Source: Chryseobacterium shigense (GTDB lineage Bacteria > Bacteroidota > Bacteroidia > Flavobacteriales > Weeksellaceae). From it: a stretch of DNA of 64,000 nt. The DNA lies in assembly GCF_014207845.1 (NCBI RefSeq), contig NZ_JACHLC010000003.1, positions 310,001-374,000 of the forward strand, in the 5' to 3' direction. This document shows, in pieces, positions 16,187-21,193 of the stretch (the stretch's first letter is position 1; every line of letters begins with the position of its first letter). Both the position numbers and the translations under genes were made by a program. The notes under the pieces were generated by a model. The model was not told the DNA's origin. It did not search any database and was given only the letters and a program-made list of their open reading frames with translations.

Positions 16187-16194
16187 TATCTTTG
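16187..16194 (+). promoter_or_regulatory. -7 promoter element of the methionine operon
   Basis: TATCTTTG matches TAnnTTTG exactly. The transcript would begin a few nt later, about 20-25 nt before the SAM-I riboswitch. There is no TTG at the standard -33 place; the 17-bp direct repeats occupy it. Confidence 0.6.
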
Positions 16195-16221
16195 CAGTGC
16201 GTTCATTCAAATATTGAAAAT

Positions 16222-16324
16222 GTTATCAAGAAAGGTTGAGGGATTAGACCCTATGAAACCTTAGCAACCCTTTGTGCAAGCAGAGAAGGTGCTACGTTCT
16301 ACCAATTTATATTGGACAGATAAC
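16222..16324 (+). ncRNA. SAM-I (S-box) riboswitch
   Basis: The sequence has the S-box core in order: TTATCAAGAAAGGTTGAGGG, the loop ATTAGACCCTATGAAACCTT, AGCAACCC, AGAAGGTGCTACGTTCTACC and a final P1 strand GATAAC. P1 is GTTATC (16222-16227) with GATAAC (16319-16324), six perfect pairs. SAM-I aptamers normally repress sulfur or methionine genes when S-adenosylmethionine is high. It lies directly before metX and the rest of the methionine series. Downstream, a 9-bp stem may mask the metX start codon (see finding). Confidence 0.93.
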
Positions 16325-16358
16325 TCACTGAAGTTCTTTTCAGCCATTTCCTGTGGCA

Positions 16359-16391
16359 TTTTCAATTGTATTAAAATAATAGAATTGAAAA
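16359..16391 (+). promoter_or_regulatory. Candidate expression platform: stem masking the metX TTG start
   Basis: TTTTCAATT at 16359-16367 pairs perfectly with AATTGAAAA at 16383-16391, which contains the proposed TTG start codon (16385-16387). A short stem GCCA/TGGC lies at 16343-16357 just upstream. Together with the aptamer this suggests translational control, though it was judged by eye only. Confidence 0.45.
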
Positions 16392-17323
16392 CAGAACTAA
16401 ACTATATTAATCTTTCGTATCAAACCGGTTCCCAAAAGGAATACAATATCCCGCTGACCTATCAGATCTTCGGGAAAGACCTGTTTTCAGCACCCGTTAT
16501 ACTGGTAAATCATGCTTTAACCGGGAACTCAAACGTTTCTGGAGAAAAAGGCTGGTGGAAAAAACTTATCGGGGAAAATCAGGTAATTGATACCAATATA
16601 TATACAGTTCTGTGTTTCAATATTCCCGGAAACGGATATGATGATTTTTTAATTGATGAATACGAAGATTTCACCTCTTCAGATATTGCACAAATATTCC
16701 TGAAAGGTCTTGAAGCTTTACATATCAAAAATTTATACGCCATTATCGGAGGTTCCCTCGGAGGAGGAATTGCCTGGGAGATGCTTGCAAAACAGCCGCA
16801 ACTCTCGGAGATATTTATTCCTATTGCCTGTGACCTTAAAACTCATGACTGGCTTCATGCACAGTGTCTTGTTCAGAAATTTCTGCTTAATGGAAACGAT
16901 GAGCCTCTGCAGAAAGCAAGAATCCATGCTATGTTGTGTTACAGGACCCCTCAATCTTTAAATGACAGATTTCAAAACAGATACGATCAGAAGAATCAGA
17001 GGCTTGAGTCTGAAGACTGGTTGGTTTATCATGGAAATTCATTAAACGAAAGATTTAGTTTAAAATCTTACAAGCTGATGAATCATTTGCTCATGAATAT
17101 CAATACCGAAGAAGAAAAACTGGAAAAAATCAGTTCCCGAATTCACCTTATCGCAGTAGATACAGATTTGTTTTTCCCTGCTTCAGAAATGCGAATGTGC
17201 TTTGAACAGCTGAAAGAGAAAAACAAAGAGGTTTTCTATCATGAAATACAGTCAATTCACGGGCATGATGCCTTCCTAATGGAATACGAACAATTAAATA
17301 CTATCATAAAAAATATTTTGTAG
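16385..17323 (+). CDS. metX: Homoserine O-acetyltransferase (MetX-like alpha/beta hydrolase)
   Basis: Converts homoserine to an O-acyl ester for methionine synthesis. The fold is alpha/beta hydrolase with the family catalytic triad: Ser about 124 in GGSLGGG, Asp about 261 in DTDLFFP, and His about 294 in GHDAFL. The substrate-loop signature LVNHALTGNSNV is also seen. The start was placed at TTG 16385 (MKTELNYINL). A longer reading frame from 16274 would translate the riboswitch and is rejected. At 312 residues it is shorter than the common 350-380, as in other flavobacterial members. The hom gene starts two nt after this stop, so they are coupled. Acetyl rather than succinyl donor is assumed from family; not proven. 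Confidence 0.88.
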   Translation: MKTELNYINLSYQTGSQKEYNIPLTYQIFGKDLFSAPVILVNHALTGNSNVSGEKGWWKKLIGENQVIDTNIYTVLCFNIPGNGYDDFLIDEYEDFTSSDIAQIFLKGLEALHIKNLYAIIGGSLGGGIAWEMLAKQPQLSEIFIPIACDLKTHDWLHAQCLVQKFLLNGNDEPLQKARIHAMLCYRTPQSLNDRFQNRYDQKNQRLESEDWLVYHGNSLNERFSLKSYKLMNHLLMNINTEEEKLEKISSRIHLIAVDTDLFFPASEMRMCFEQLKEKNKEVFYHEIQSIHGHDAFLMEYEQLNTIIKNIL

Positions 17324-17324
17324 A

Positions 17325-18863
17325 ATGAGAAATGCTAACGAAATAAAGTTTTTAAAAAACAGATCAATCATTAAGTTTGAAGGAGAGGATTTCCTGGGTG
17401 AAATCGGGATCGACGGAAGAATTTTTAAAGCGCTTACTTTGGCACGCATCAGTGTTGGAGTAATCTCTCAACAGGCCATTGAAAACGGAATATCCATTCT
17501 GGTCAATGAGGCAGATGCAGAAAAAGCAGTTACCTGTCTGATCGATGAGTTTGAGGCAGAAAGAAAATCAGGAAAAGTTTCACAGATATACAGTATTAAT
17601 AACGTTTCCGTACTCGGTTTTGTAGCGGAAGATTTTAATAAAGTTCTTGCAGAGCTTGCAAGGAATAATGTTTTTCCGCTTCTTCTGAACCAGGTTGCAG
17701 CCGAAAAGAGAGTTAATATTGTGGTTACCTCTTCTCAGGACGAGAAAACGAAAAATATCATTGAATCCGAAATTTTCAAAAAGCCTAAAACCGTTCACCT
17801 GGCAATCATAGGACATGGAAACGTTGGAAAGACTTTAATAGACCAGGTTTTACAGTCCTCTGAAGAAATCAAAAGACGTAAAAAAATAGATCTTAAGGTA
17901 GTTGCAGTGGCCAACTCAAGAAAGATTGCATTCAACAAAAAAGGATTTAATGAAAACTGGAACGATGAGGTTTTAACAGCAGAACACTCATCAAATGTTG
18001 AAGAACTGATCAGTTTTTCAAAAGAAAACCAACTGGAAAACCTTATTGTAGTGGACAATACGGCAAGCAAAGATTTTGTAAAGAATTATCATGCGCTGGC
18101 CGAAAACGGCTTTGATCTGGTTTCCTCCAATAAAATATTCAATACCCTTCCTATCGAAGAATACCGTAAACTAAGATATACGTTGAGCAAAAACAACAGA
18201 CGCTATTTATATGAAACTAATGTAGGAGCAGGGCTTCCATTGATTGATACGATAAAATTATTACATCTTTCAGGAGAAAATATCACGAGAATAAAAGGCG
18301 TGTTTTCCGGATCGTTGAGCTATATCTTCAATAATTTCTCTGTGAGAAATGATAAGTTCTCAACCATCATCGGAGAGGCAATGGAAAAGGGATACACGGA
18401 ACCCGATCCGCGTGAAGACCTTTCAGGAAATGATGTCGCAAGAAAACTTCTGATCCTTGCCAGAGAGCTGGATCTGATCAATGAGTTCCAGGATATCAAT
18501 ATTCAGAATTTAATTCCTGAAAACCTGCTTTCCATTGATAAAAATGAGTTTGTTTCAAGGCTTGAGGAGTTGGATGATGAATATCAGAGAATTAAAGAAG
18601 AGCAGCAATCGGGGCACGTGCTTCGTTATGTAGGTGATCTTCACGGTGACCTTCAGAAAGATAAAGGACAACTGGATGTGAAATTGGTTTCCGTACCCGG
18701 AAGTTCAGCTTTAGGTCAGTTAAAAGGTTCAGATTCTATCTTTGAGATCTACACGGAAAGCTATGGTGAAAATCCTATTGTAATTATGGGAGCCGGGGCC
18801 GGAGCCAAAGTAACGGCGAGAGGAGTTTTCGGGGATATTTTAAGAGTAAGTGAAACTAAATAA
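17325..18863 (+). CDS. ACT-domain homoserine dehydrogenase without aspartate kinase domain
   Basis: A 512-residue protein resembling the C-terminal two-thirds of ThrA/MetL (aspartate kinase-homoserine dehydrogenase). Residues 1-150 look like the tandem ACT regulatory region (GIDGRIFKALTLARISVGVISQ; SVLGFVAEDFNKVLAELARNNV). From about 155 an NAD(P)-binding Rossmann fold starts at IIGHGNVGKT, and the catalytic part has NVGAGLPLIDTIKLL, GVFSGSLSYIFN and KGYTEPDPREDLSG. The kinase domain is absent, so aspartate phosphorylation must come from another gene. The enzyme would make homoserine for the upstream MetX, whose stop codon is immediately before this start. The ACT part may still give feedback control by threonine or methionine. 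Confidence 0.9.
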   Translation: MRNANEIKFLKNRSIIKFEGEDFLGEIGIDGRIFKALTLARISVGVISQQAIENGISILVNEADAEKAVTCLIDEFEAERKSGKVSQIYSINNVSVLGFVAEDFNKVLAELARNNVFPLLLNQVAAEKRVNIVVTSSQDEKTKNIIESEIFKKPKTVHLAIIGHGNVGKTLIDQVLQSSEEIKRRKKIDLKVVAVANSRKIAFNKKGFNENWNDEVLTAEHSSNVEELISFSKENQLENLIVVDNTASKDFVKNYHALAENGFDLVSSNKIFNTLPIEEYRKLRYTLSKNNRRYLYETNVGAGLPLIDTIKLLHLSGENITRIKGVFSGSLSYIFNNFSVRNDKFSTIIGEAMEKGYTEPDPREDLSGNDVARKLLILARELDLINEFQDINIQNLIPENLLSIDKNEFVSRLEELDDEYQRIKEEQQSGHVLRYVGDLHGDLQKDKGQLDVKLVSVPGSSALGQLKGSDSIFEIYTESYGENPIVIMGAGAGAKVTARGVFGDILRVSETK

Positions 18864-18951: not shown

Positions 18952-20112
18952 ATGGAAAATTTTGAAACATCAGCGATAAGAACACAGACTGAACGAACAC
19001 AGTTTGACGAACATTCAACGGCATTATACCTTACATCCAGCTTTATTTTTCAGGATGCTGAAGATATGAGAGCCAGTTTTGCTGAAGAAAAATCTAAAAA
19101 CCTCTACAGCCGTTTTTCAAACCCGAATGTAACTGAATTCACGGATAAGATTGCAAAAATGGAGGGAGCTGAAGCCGGATATGCATTTGCAACAGGAATG
19201 GCGGCTATCTATTCAACATTTGCTGCTTTACTGGAAGCAGGTGATCACATTGTTAGCTGCCAGTCTGTATTTGGGTCTACCCATACTTTATTTACAAAGT
19301 ATTTCCCGAAATGGAACATTGAAACTACTTATTTCAAAGCAGAAGATGCTGAAAATGTAGAGCGGTATATTAAACCCAATACTAAGATTTTATATCTCGA
19401 AACACCTACCAATCCTGCCATTGAAATTCTTGATCTTGAGTTTTTCGGACAGATTGCTAAAAAGCATAACCTGATATTTATCGTAGATAACTGTTTTGCA
19501 ACGCCTTATCTTCAGCAGCCCATTAAATATGGTGCAGATGTTGTTGTGCATTCTGCAACGAAGCTTATTGACGGACAGGGAAGAGTGTTAGGTGGAGTTG
19601 CGGTAGGAAGAGAAGATATGATCAGAGAGATTTATCTTTTTGCAAGAAATACAGGACCTGCAATGTCGCCTTTCAACGCATGGGTACTATCCAAAAGTCT
19701 CGAAACACTGGCTATCCGTGTTGAAAAACATTGTGAAAATGCTTTGAAAGTAGCTGAGTTTTTGGAAAATCATCCTAATGTAGAACTCGTAAAATATCCT
19801 TTCCTGAAATCCCATCCGAGTTATGAAATCGCTAAAAAGCAGATGAAGCTTGGTGGAAATATTGTAGCCTTCGAAATTAAAGGAGGAATAGAAGGAGGAA
19901 GAAACTTCCTGGATAAAATAAAACTCTGCTCACTTTCTGCCAATCTGGGAGATACCAGAACTATTGTAACACATCCTGCATCAACTACTCATTCAAAACT
20001 GACGGACGAGGAAAGAAATGAAGTAGGAATTACCGCAGGTTTGGTTCGTTGTTCAGTAGGTCTTGAACATGTTGATGATGTGATAGCAGATCTGAAACAG
20101 GCTTTAGATTAA
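18952..20112 (+). CDS. Cys/Met-metabolism PLP enzyme (O-acylhomoserine sulfhydrylase)
   Basis: A 386-residue PLP-dependent trans-sulfuration-family protein. The pyridoxal-binding lysine lies in HSATKLIDGQG (about residue 204), with the family phrases YSRFSNPNV, ATGMAAIYSTFAALLEAGDH, ETPTNPA and IFIVDNCFATPY also present. It most resembles O-succinyl/O-acetylhomoserine sulfhydrylases (MetZ/MetY), which add sulfide to make homocysteine. The preceding MetX would give O-acetylhomoserine, supporting that reading. Cystathionine gamma-synthase activity is an alternative. It follows the dehydrogenase gene after 88 nt that hold a strong inverted repeat. Confidence 0.9.
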   Translation: MENFETSAIRTQTERTQFDEHSTALYLTSSFIFQDAEDMRASFAEEKSKNLYSRFSNPNVTEFTDKIAKMEGAEAGYAFATGMAAIYSTFAALLEAGDHIVSCQSVFGSTHTLFTKYFPKWNIETTYFKAEDAENVERYIKPNTKILYLETPTNPAIEILDLEFFGQIAKKHNLIFIVDNCFATPYLQQPIKYGADVVVHSATKLIDGQGRVLGGVAVGREDMIREIYLFARNTGPAMSPFNAWVLSKSLETLAIRVEKHCENALKVAEFLENHPNVELVKYPFLKSHPSYEIAKKQMKLGGNIVAFEIKGGIEGGRNFLDKIKLCSLSANLGDTRTIVTHPASTTHSKLTDEERNEVGITAGLVRCSVGLEHVDDVIADLKQALD

Positions 20113-20120
20113 TCAATAGG

Positions 20121-20171
20121 AATGGGATTTAGCCCATTTAATCAATGGTAACACAAAAATGGCTTTAGCCA
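20121..20171 (+). repeat. Two short palindromes before the first methionine synthase gene
   Basis: AATGGG/CCCATT (20121-20126 and 20133-20138, loop ATTTAG) and TGGCTTTAGCCA (20160-20171). They share the core GGxTTTAGCC. The second one ends 11 nt before the start codon of the next gene. They resemble short dispersed palindromes rather than terminators, since no T tract follows. Confidence 0.6.
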
Positions 20172-20182
20172 AAATATATAAA

Positions 20183-21193
20183 ATGAAAAATTCAGAACAA
20201 CTATACAAAGCATTATCCGAGAGAATTTTAATTCTTGACGGAGCTATGGGAACCATGCTTCAGCGTTATAATTTTGAAGAAGAGGATTACCGTGGCGAAC
20301 GTTTCAAAGACTGGGAACATCCGGTAAAGGGAAACAATGACCTGCTTTCCCTTACGCAGCCTCAGGCAATTGAAGAAGTTCATAAGAAATACCTGGAAGC
20401 CGGAGCAGACATTATAGAAACCAATACGTTCTCCGGAACCACTATCGCGATGGCAGATTATCATATGGAAGATCTGGTATACGACCTGAACTATGAATCA
20501 GCTAAGATTGCCAGAAAAGCCTGTGATGAATTTACCACTAAAAATCCAGACAAACCAAGATTTGTTGCCGGCTCCATAGGACCTACGAACAGAACAGCAA
20601 GTTTAAGTCCGGATGTAAACGATCCGGGATACAGGGCAATTACCTTTGAAGAGTTGAGAGTAGCTTATAAACAGCAATGTGAAGCTTTACTTGACGGAGG
20701 CTCAGACATTCTTCTGGTAGAAACCATCTTTGATACCCTGAATGCAAAAGCAGCCCTGTTTGCCATTGATGAAATTCAGGAAGAAAGAAACATAAAAATT
20801 CCTATTATGGTTTCCGGGACAATTACAGATGCCTCAGGAAGAACTTTGAGCGGACAAACCGCTGAAGCGTTCCTTATATCGATTTCGCATCTGAACTTAC
20901 TGAGTGTAGGTTTCAACTGTGCATTGGGTGCGGATCAGTTGACCCCATATCTGGAAACGCTGGCACATAATTCAGAATTTTATGTTTCAGCTTATCCGAA
21001 TGCAGGACTTCCGAACGCTTTCGGAAAATATGATGAAACACCGGAAGATATGGCAAGACAGATCAAAGAATATGTAGAGAAAGGATTAATCAATATCATT
21101 GGAGGGTGCTGTGGAACAACCCCTGATCACATTAAAGCAATAGCAGATCTTGTAGCGCAGTATTCTCCAAGAAAATTGAAGAAATTTGCATAA
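20183..21193 (+). CDS. Methionine synthase, homocysteine-binding half (split MetH)
   Basis: The 336-residue protein is the homocysteine S-methyltransferase domain of cobalamin-dependent methionine synthase. Seen in order are [11 protein letters not shown] near the N-terminus, IETNTFSGT, and the zinc-binding cysteines in GFNCALG and in [10 protein letters not shown] near the C-terminus. Start ATG 20183 ([11 protein letters not shown]) is chosen; the upstream in-frame ATG at 20159 lies within a palindrome. The remaining domains of MetH are encoded by the gene at 21513-24173. Together they total about 1220 residues, the length of the one-chain enzyme, so this is a clean gene split at the Hcy/folate domain border. 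Confidence 0.93.

Follow-up and report, generated by a model that had tools for sequence, protein, structure and literature searches.

What can a SAM-responsive riboswitch mask to stop translation in Bacteroidetes, whose mRNAs lack Shine-Dalgarno sequences (PMC6847099; this and all other papers are cited here from excerpts of their text)? The question is raised by the metX leader in a 64,000-nucleotide stretch of Chryseobacterium shigense DNA (hereafter, the window), in which, by inspection, positions 16368-16384 just upstream of the start codon hold no Shine-Dalgarno-like motif. Since Bacteroidetes mRNAs are devoid of this element, masking of the codon itself with its flanks seems the obvious route, and in Flavobacterium johnsoniae, which belongs to the same order as C. 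shigense, well-translated genes show lower pairing around the start, where structure tunes translation (PMC6847099). An initial annotation of this locus had read the start codon as the masked element under translational control, a reading that is supported by our sequence comparisons and folding predictions. The answer that we propose, with a probability of about 0.7, is that one conserved strand (16353-16367) has two complementary partners, the UUG start region and the leader plus the 5' strand of helix P1, and that SAM binding would make it exchange the leader for the start codon, blocking translation. The aptamer match, the competing complementarities and their conservation, and the covariation with the P1 strand are established at the level of sequence analysis, as is the lack of a strong terminator.

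Judged by its match, the aptamer in the window is an ordinary SAM-I. Rfam gave a single match at the gathering cut-off in the whole 64-kb window, to RF00162 as the sole family (16220-16326, plus strand; 79 bits against a cut-off of 44.4; E 6.5e-17), and the alignment spans positions 1-108 of the 108-position model, indicating a full-length aptamer. The P1-P4 consensus pairs are retained, except at the outer end of P1 and for a few pairs marked as non-standard. The S-box aptamer and the perfect P1 of the initial annotation were thereby confirmed, the latter as GUUAUC fully paired with GAUAAC, and the interval assigned to the element held for its core. Its 5' limit did not, since the leader strand (16213-16221) and, further upstream, a -7 promoter box lie ahead of it. 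The box follows the Bacteroidota -7 consensus TAnnTTTG (PMC6847099) and is located 27-35 nt ahead of P1 in 59 of the 64 metX leaders described below. The coordinates of all features are collected in Table 1.

Table 1 Features of the metX leader and the genes behind it (positions in the window).
Feature	Position	Strand	Basis
Bacteroidota -7 promoter box TATCTTTG (TAnnTTTG)	16187..16194	+	sequence; consensus from PMC6847099 (excerpt)
Leader strand ATTGAAAATG	16213..16222	+	10 Watson-Crick pairs with 16357-16366
SAM-I (S-box) aptamer	16220..16326	+	RF00162, 79 bits
P1 5' strand GUUAUC, putative switching strand	16222..16227	+	sequence, Rfam, complementarity scan
P1 3' strand GAUAAC	16319..16324	+	sequence, Rfam
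AGUUCU, pairs with AGAACU (16393-16398); predicted junction closure around hairpin H and masking hairpin	16332..16337	+	minimum-energy fold
Hairpin H, GCCAU/GUGGC, just 5' of the anti-start strand	16343..16357	+	scan match; weak as intrinsic terminator
Anti-start strand GUGGCAUUUUCAAUU, complementary to start region and to leader plus P1 5' strand	16353..16367	+	sequence, minimum-energy fold, scan
Upper masking hairpin TATTA/TAATA, loop AAA	16369..16381	+	minimum-energy fold; loop length varies in relatives
Masking-stem 3' arm AATTGAAAA, holds the start codon	16383..16391	+	sequence, minimum-energy fold
TTG start codon of metX	16385..16387	+	sole in-frame ATG/GTG/TTG between aptamer and 16700
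metX-like gene, predicted homoserine O-acetyltransferase, 312 aa	16385..17323	+	TIGR01392, E 7e-43
Homoserine dehydrogenase with ACT domain	17325..18863	+	PF00742, E 6.7e-46
O-succinylhomoserine sulfhydrylase-type enzyme (metZ-like)	18952..20112	+	NF006003, 532.6 bits, above cut-off 522
MetH N-terminal (homocysteine methyltransferase) protein	20159..21193	+	NF007024, E 8e-168

The assignment of the first gene as metX, for which gene context and database names speak, is of moderate strength. Its product scores 147 bits against TIGR01392, under the 500-bit cut-off, and Pfam gives an alpha/beta hydrolase only; close homologues are named either homoserine O-acetyltransferase or alpha/beta hydrolase, and the closest named ones come from Chryseobacterium. 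As expected of a SAM-I element, methionine/SAM genes lie downstream, with the metX-like, homoserine dehydrogenase, metZ-like and metH-type genes on the same strand. The homoserine dehydrogenase reaches 469.5 bits against PRK09436, under the cut-off of 726, and residues 8-342 of the MetH-type protein align with positions 5-339 of the 1234 in NF007024, under the full-length cut-off. In two loci of the genus (L017 1667-2603 and L027 508-1441), metX is apparently frame-shifted, as seen from split tblastn matches, by assembly error or real loss.

For the comparisons, family, order and class denote Weeksellaceae, Flavobacteriales and Bacteroidia; the sequences are related, so that the counts are not independent events, and some genomes contribute more than one locus. 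We used 64 metX leaders with an aptamer, 30 from the same genus and 34 from other genera. The former are the metX cases among 32 loci (L001-L032) drawn from the C. shigense genome and the best-scoring matches, 172 of the 173 genus genomes having matches; the latter are those with the aptamer motif among 40 regions taken from 87 other-genus genomes with a MetX-like match. Rfam agreed with the motif calls in 20 of 20 cases, finding the aptamer in all 14 scanned of these 34 leaders and in none of the 6 regions without the motif. The order was represented by 82 loci from the matches listed, in 113 of 196 genomes, reduced to 81 by dropping L121 for its short flank, with subsets of 77 (four loci without a recognised P1 dropped) and 68 (less a further two lacking an ORF and seven whose start precedes the element). 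The controls were 28 of 30 listed loci from elsewhere in the class, after exclusion of the truncated L236 and of L238, which belongs to the same genus, and 21 of 22 Firmicutes loci, after exclusion of L190 at a contig edge.

The proposed TTG start, which begins 58 nt after the aptamer end, was corroborated in its position: it is the sole in-frame standard start between the aptamer and 16700, and at least 104 of 120 homologues among the matches listed begin at this codon (95 with MKTEL, 9 with LKTEL). GTG 16274 and GTG 16289 are in frame but inside the aptamer and were rejected, as was the GTG within the anti-start strand (16353-16355), which lies 32 nt before the TTG and out of frame here. Nine of the 120 database proteins among the matches listed begin with MAFSI, which we read as the anti-start-strand GTG being in frame there; these start annotations, in close relatives, are probably wrong. 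The spacing of the two arms varies among relatives without keeping to multiples of three, and the stretch upstream of the TTG is therefore not coding.

The 9-bp stem described in the initial annotation, TTTTCAATT (16359-16367) with AATTGAAAA (16383-16391), proved exact. The minimum-energy fold adds five pairs (16369-16373/16377-16381) past a G-G mismatch, giving 14 pairs in total, and the fold of 16203-16430 has a z of -3.0 relative to shuffles. In a chance control confined to the 64-kb window, a perfect Watson-Crick run of at least 9 over a given triplet, the pairing partner being a short way upstream, occurred at 17 of 4000 random plus-strand positions, and the run of 9 over the metX TTG compares with a maximum of 7 among 48 ATG starts of ORFs of at least 150 aa. 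The stem is also conserved in relatives, with a perfect run of at least 7 over the start codon in 58 of the 64 leaders, and the six metX genes without an aptamer, whose fetched stretches gave no aptamer match in Rfam, have runs of 0-4 at candidate starts.

The masking follows the start codon when the codon moves. The starts assigned in the 64 leaders are TTG in 57, ATG in 6 and GTG in 1; the TTG starts pair with a UUUUCAAUU-type sequence, and in the seven leaders with ATG or GTG, from five other genera, the start lies elsewhere in the N-terminus and is still covered by the anti-start strand. These ATG/GTG starts pair with its GUAGCAU part or, in single genera, with GCAACAUU or GUUGGCAU: GUAGCAUUU pairs with AAAUGCUAC at the start in L073, L081 and L085, GCAACAUU with AAUGUUGC in L078 and L080, GUUGGCAU with AUGCUGAC in L083, and GUAGCAU with GUGCUAC in L079; because of G-U pairs, the perfect Watson-Crick runs in L083 and L079 are just 4 and 3, respectively. 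In L064 and L069, the ninth masking-stem pair is G-C in place of U-A. The codon moves yet stays covered, and we therefore argue that covering the start codon is what selection keeps; as the anti-start patterns and start assignments were defined with the sequences already in view, the figure of 64 of 64 does not count as independent.

Elsewhere in the order, pairing of the antisense element with the start is only moderately enriched, ranking in the best 5% of shuffles in 19 of 68 loci and in the best 10% in 30 of 68, and all three start bases are paired in 29 of 68. In the genus g35 of family f3 (L136-L139, L141, L149, L154 and L158), the N-terminus of the first ORF starts near TTG GAA A, like that of metX in the window's family, close to an antisense element containing TTTCC, the ORF picker having taken a TTG that lies two codons earlier; use of UUG as the start may predate the window's family. 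In another six loci of the order (L117, L125, L134, L153, L155 and L157; first ORF MST...ALHAG), the antisense element is located 75-188 nt before the start, and the start region GAAAAATGAG still matches the antisense ACATTTTTC, possibly a long-range form of start masking.

The start region is not the only predicted partner of the anti-start strand. The pairing with the start codon recognised in the initial annotation stands, but a third partner, the leader plus P1 5' strand (16213-16226), had been missed: the leader strand ATTGAAAATG, which is similar in sequence to the start region, forms 10 Watson-Crick pairs with the anti-start strand, and 16223-16226 of the P1 5' strand extend this helix by three G-U pairs and one A-U pair with 16353-16356. 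Across 36 unique leader/anti-start combinations and 15 columns, 480 of 540 cells are paired. An upstream ORF from the leader ATG (16220-16222) was rejected, and the leader conservation is not coding, because by eye these frames stop at varying positions among relatives or, in some, stay open.

To locate this complementarity, 16-nt windows along the leader and aptamer were compared with the 130 nt downstream and expressed as z. The scan peaked at the leader/P1 5' strand, with a mean z of -4.25 (-4.03 in a repeat) and 94% of values below -2 for the family metX loci (n = 35; the 34 loci of other genera and the window's own), and a z of -2.61 with 62% below -2 for the 81 other loci of the order, which precede a variety of genes; windows at a distance from the 5' strand gave z between +0.6 and -1.2. 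In an earlier test of 82 order loci, no more than 5 of 100 shuffles did as well as the real sequence in 54 loci, and the mean z was -2.39. The 5'-strand signal was not found in the 28 rest-of-class and 21 Firmicutes SAM-I loci (5' windows, 0.1 to -0.7), and by these scans the complementarity is order-specific within the sample. The P1 3' strand (window e-12) behaved in the opposite way, with z of 0.44 in the family (n = 35), 0.01 in the order, -1.35 in the rest of the class and -2.14 in Firmicutes (n = 21), and was rejected as the switching strand here for lack of a signal in the family and order.

The antisense element also covaries with P1. When the element was located in 77 order loci ignoring P1 base 1, the 37 loci with G at this base had C in 22, T in 11 and A in 4 at the opposite position, that is, pairs in 33 of 37 with G-U counted, and the 40 loci with C had G in 25, A in 6, T in 5 and C in 4, pairing in 25 of 40. 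An opposite G was thus present in 25 of 40 loci with C versus 0 of 37 with G (Fisher p 4e-10, for related sequences that are not independent), and 15 of the 40 lack the matching G.

We then consider whether the two helices of the anti-start strand exclude each other in predicted folds, with forced P1 serving as a proxy for bound SAM. With P1 forced, the anti-start:start probability was at least 0.9 in 59 of 64 leaders and below 0.9 in five (0.42 in L069), and leader:anti-start pairing was at most 0.02 in 64 of 64. In transcripts ending before the start arm (16 chosen of the 64), the leader:anti-start probability was 0.86-0.99 and P1 was near 0 in 16 of 16, with 0.89 for the window's own transcript. 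With the leader helix forced, anti-start:start pairing was at most 0.15 in 49 of 64, 0.15-0.5 in nine and above 0.5 in six (L067, L091, L096, L098, L099 and L100), and the start bases often paired elsewhere. In these computations, leader:anti-start pairing and P1 are mutually exclusive, as in a strand exchange. A polarity opposite to the one we propose, in which a SAM-closed P1 places the leader beside the anti-start strand and frees the start in a SAM-activated switch, could draw on the fact that the 10-bp leader core and P1 share only G16222, so that the two could in principle coexist. It is very improbable, given the near absence of leader:anti-start pairing in every leader with P1 forced, and from general knowledge SAM activation makes little sense for a methionine-synthesis gene.

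The full-length RNA behaves differently from the shorter transcripts. Unconstrained, leader:anti-start pairing reached at least 0.5 in 30 of 64 leaders (11 of 30 from the same genus and 19 of 34 others). For the window's full-length RNA without ligand, the ensemble energy is -56.7 kcal/mol unconstrained versus -51.9 kcal/mol with the leader helix forced, and equilibrium pairing of the leader with the anti-start strand was rejected as a sufficient explanation, since it does not hold for this sequence. Because the masked start is thus favored by about 5 kcal/mol without ligand, kinetic control must be assumed, as has been described for strand-exchange riboswitches (PMC10907184). Since the transcripts ending before the start arm form the leader helix, the order of transcription would favor the ON state unless SAM closes P1 first.

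The masking hairpin of the window is in the minimum-energy fold whether or not P1 is forced, which would also suit a scheme in which this hairpin is real, SAM acts on it through coaxial stacking, through the 16332-16337/16393-16398 helix or through a protein, and the leader complementarity has another role or is a by-product. We regard this as unlikely, in view of the leader/P1 5'-strand complementarity, which dominates the scan and covaries at P1; in addition, the GTTC/GAAC match of the 16332-16337/16393-16398 helix is absent in L012 and L014. This helix was rejected as the switch itself, as it is not conserved throughout the genus.

In the strand shift that we favor, at low SAM, the leader and the P1 5' strand would capture the anti-start strand upon its transcription, P1 would open, and the start codon would emerge free. 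At high SAM, the closed P1 would lock its 5' strand away, and the anti-start strand would fold onto the start codon. The masked element would be the start codon with its flanks and not a Shine-Dalgarno sequence, and translation of metX, probably along with that of the following met genes, would be switched OFF.

The initial annotation saw no strong terminator between aptamer and gene, and this held up. A terminator pattern scan gave one weak match, GCCATTTCCTGTGGC followed by ATTTTCAATT, where 0.2 were expected in shuffles; its hairpin H folds at -5.6 kcal/mol and its T run is interrupted. The intrinsic terminator was rejected as the main mechanism, and intrinsic termination is unlikely. The match nevertheless leads to a transcription attenuation scheme, in which hairpin H (16343-16357) with AUUUUCAAUU is a weak terminator and the leader helix, invading the 3' arm of H, is the antiterminator: by sequence, the two compete for 16353-16357, and rest-of-class SAM-I loci have a hairpin of -8 kcal/mol or better before a U5 run in 20 of 28. 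Across the 64 metX leaders, however, hairpin H has a best energy of -5.9 and a median of -4.5 kcal/mol, with none at -8; a U5 tract is found in 25 of the 64, in none directly preceded by a hairpin of -8 or better, and the T run of the window is broken by a C. Attenuation also leaves unexplained why the strand covers the start codon wherever the codon lies, and we consider it quite unlikely.

A second SAM-I aptamer of the C. shigense genome lies outside the window (G000:C3:205332-205429, corresponding to L002 1501-1598; 66.2 bits). It precedes a gene with a TonB-dependent receptor plug domain, possibly a SAM-controlled outer-membrane uptake gene, and is followed by a -12.8 kcal/mol hairpin and a T run; because of this hairpin and T run, the genome appears to use two SAM-I output types. 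By eye, a high-scoring aptamer in another genome of the genus (L006 1501-1604) precedes a TonB-dependent-receptor-like ORF.

Poor translation might also expose the mRNA to Rho-dependent termination or RNases, making the mRNA level the primary readout. Other riboswitches provide examples of this route (PMC12121620, PMC10907184), but here it would be secondary to the same masking step, and as the primary readout it is highly improbable.

SAM-I elements in Bacteroidetes were already known (PMC2211319, PMC2258182), and one of these studies took control to be translational in cases that had no terminator and fitted none of its other criteria (PMC2258182). The B. subtilis yitJ-type S-box attenuators share the aptamer family RF00162 and strand exchange at P1 with the system in the window. 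In those attenuators, the switching strand of P1 is the one facing the 5' strand; it pairs with the antiterminator, with a terminator downstream (PMC3656099), a textbook arrangement reflected in the P1 3'-strand signal of our 21 Firmicutes loci, whereas here the 5' strand and the upstream leader are complementary to the downstream strand and there is no strong terminator. SAM-I Xcc of Xanthomonas campestris is also a translational OFF switch, in which a platform hairpin covers the AUG in the presence of SAM (PMC7270179); here, a hairpin around the start codon with SAM bound is a folding prediction. SAM-I Xcc has Shine-Dalgarno and anti-Shine-Dalgarno sequences and its platform also binds tRNAfMet (PMC7270179), whereas the window has no Shine-Dalgarno-like motif and its anti-start strand matches the leader and P1 5' strand of the same transcript. 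Strand-exchange riboswitches likewise use one sequence in two exclusive helices, usually including the first helix of the aptamer (PMC10907184), and differ in that here the invaded strand is the 5' strand with the upstream leader, which the start region resembles. SAM-II, SAM-III (SMK) and SAM-V share the control of translation by hiding initiation signals; they occlude the ribosome-binding site directly within the aptamer (PMC10907184), and the match in the window is to RF00162 only.

Among the full-text literature matches listed, which include few subscription journals and preprints, we found neither a description of a 5'-strand or leader-swap platform nor a worked example of riboswitch translation shut-off in mRNAs lacking Shine-Dalgarno sequences. 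The aptamer type and translational SAM-I control being already known, what appears new here is the proposed 5'-strand/leader-swap platform. We lean towards the view that the SAM-I elements of Flavobacteriales form a distinct platform class, in which a downstream strand is antisense to the element's own leader/P1 5' strand, the start region mimics that strand, and SAM determines whether the downstream strand pairs with the one or the other; such a platform would be independent of a ribosome-binding site, would hide the start codon and may have helped to hold the UUG start across genera.

The locus thus offers a concrete three-strand model with the start codon as the putative masked element. The model would give a reason for the conserved UUG start, predicts that mutants in the leader and in the anti-start strand behave in opposite ways, and directs attention to further SAM-I genes in the order that contains the model organism F. 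johnsoniae.
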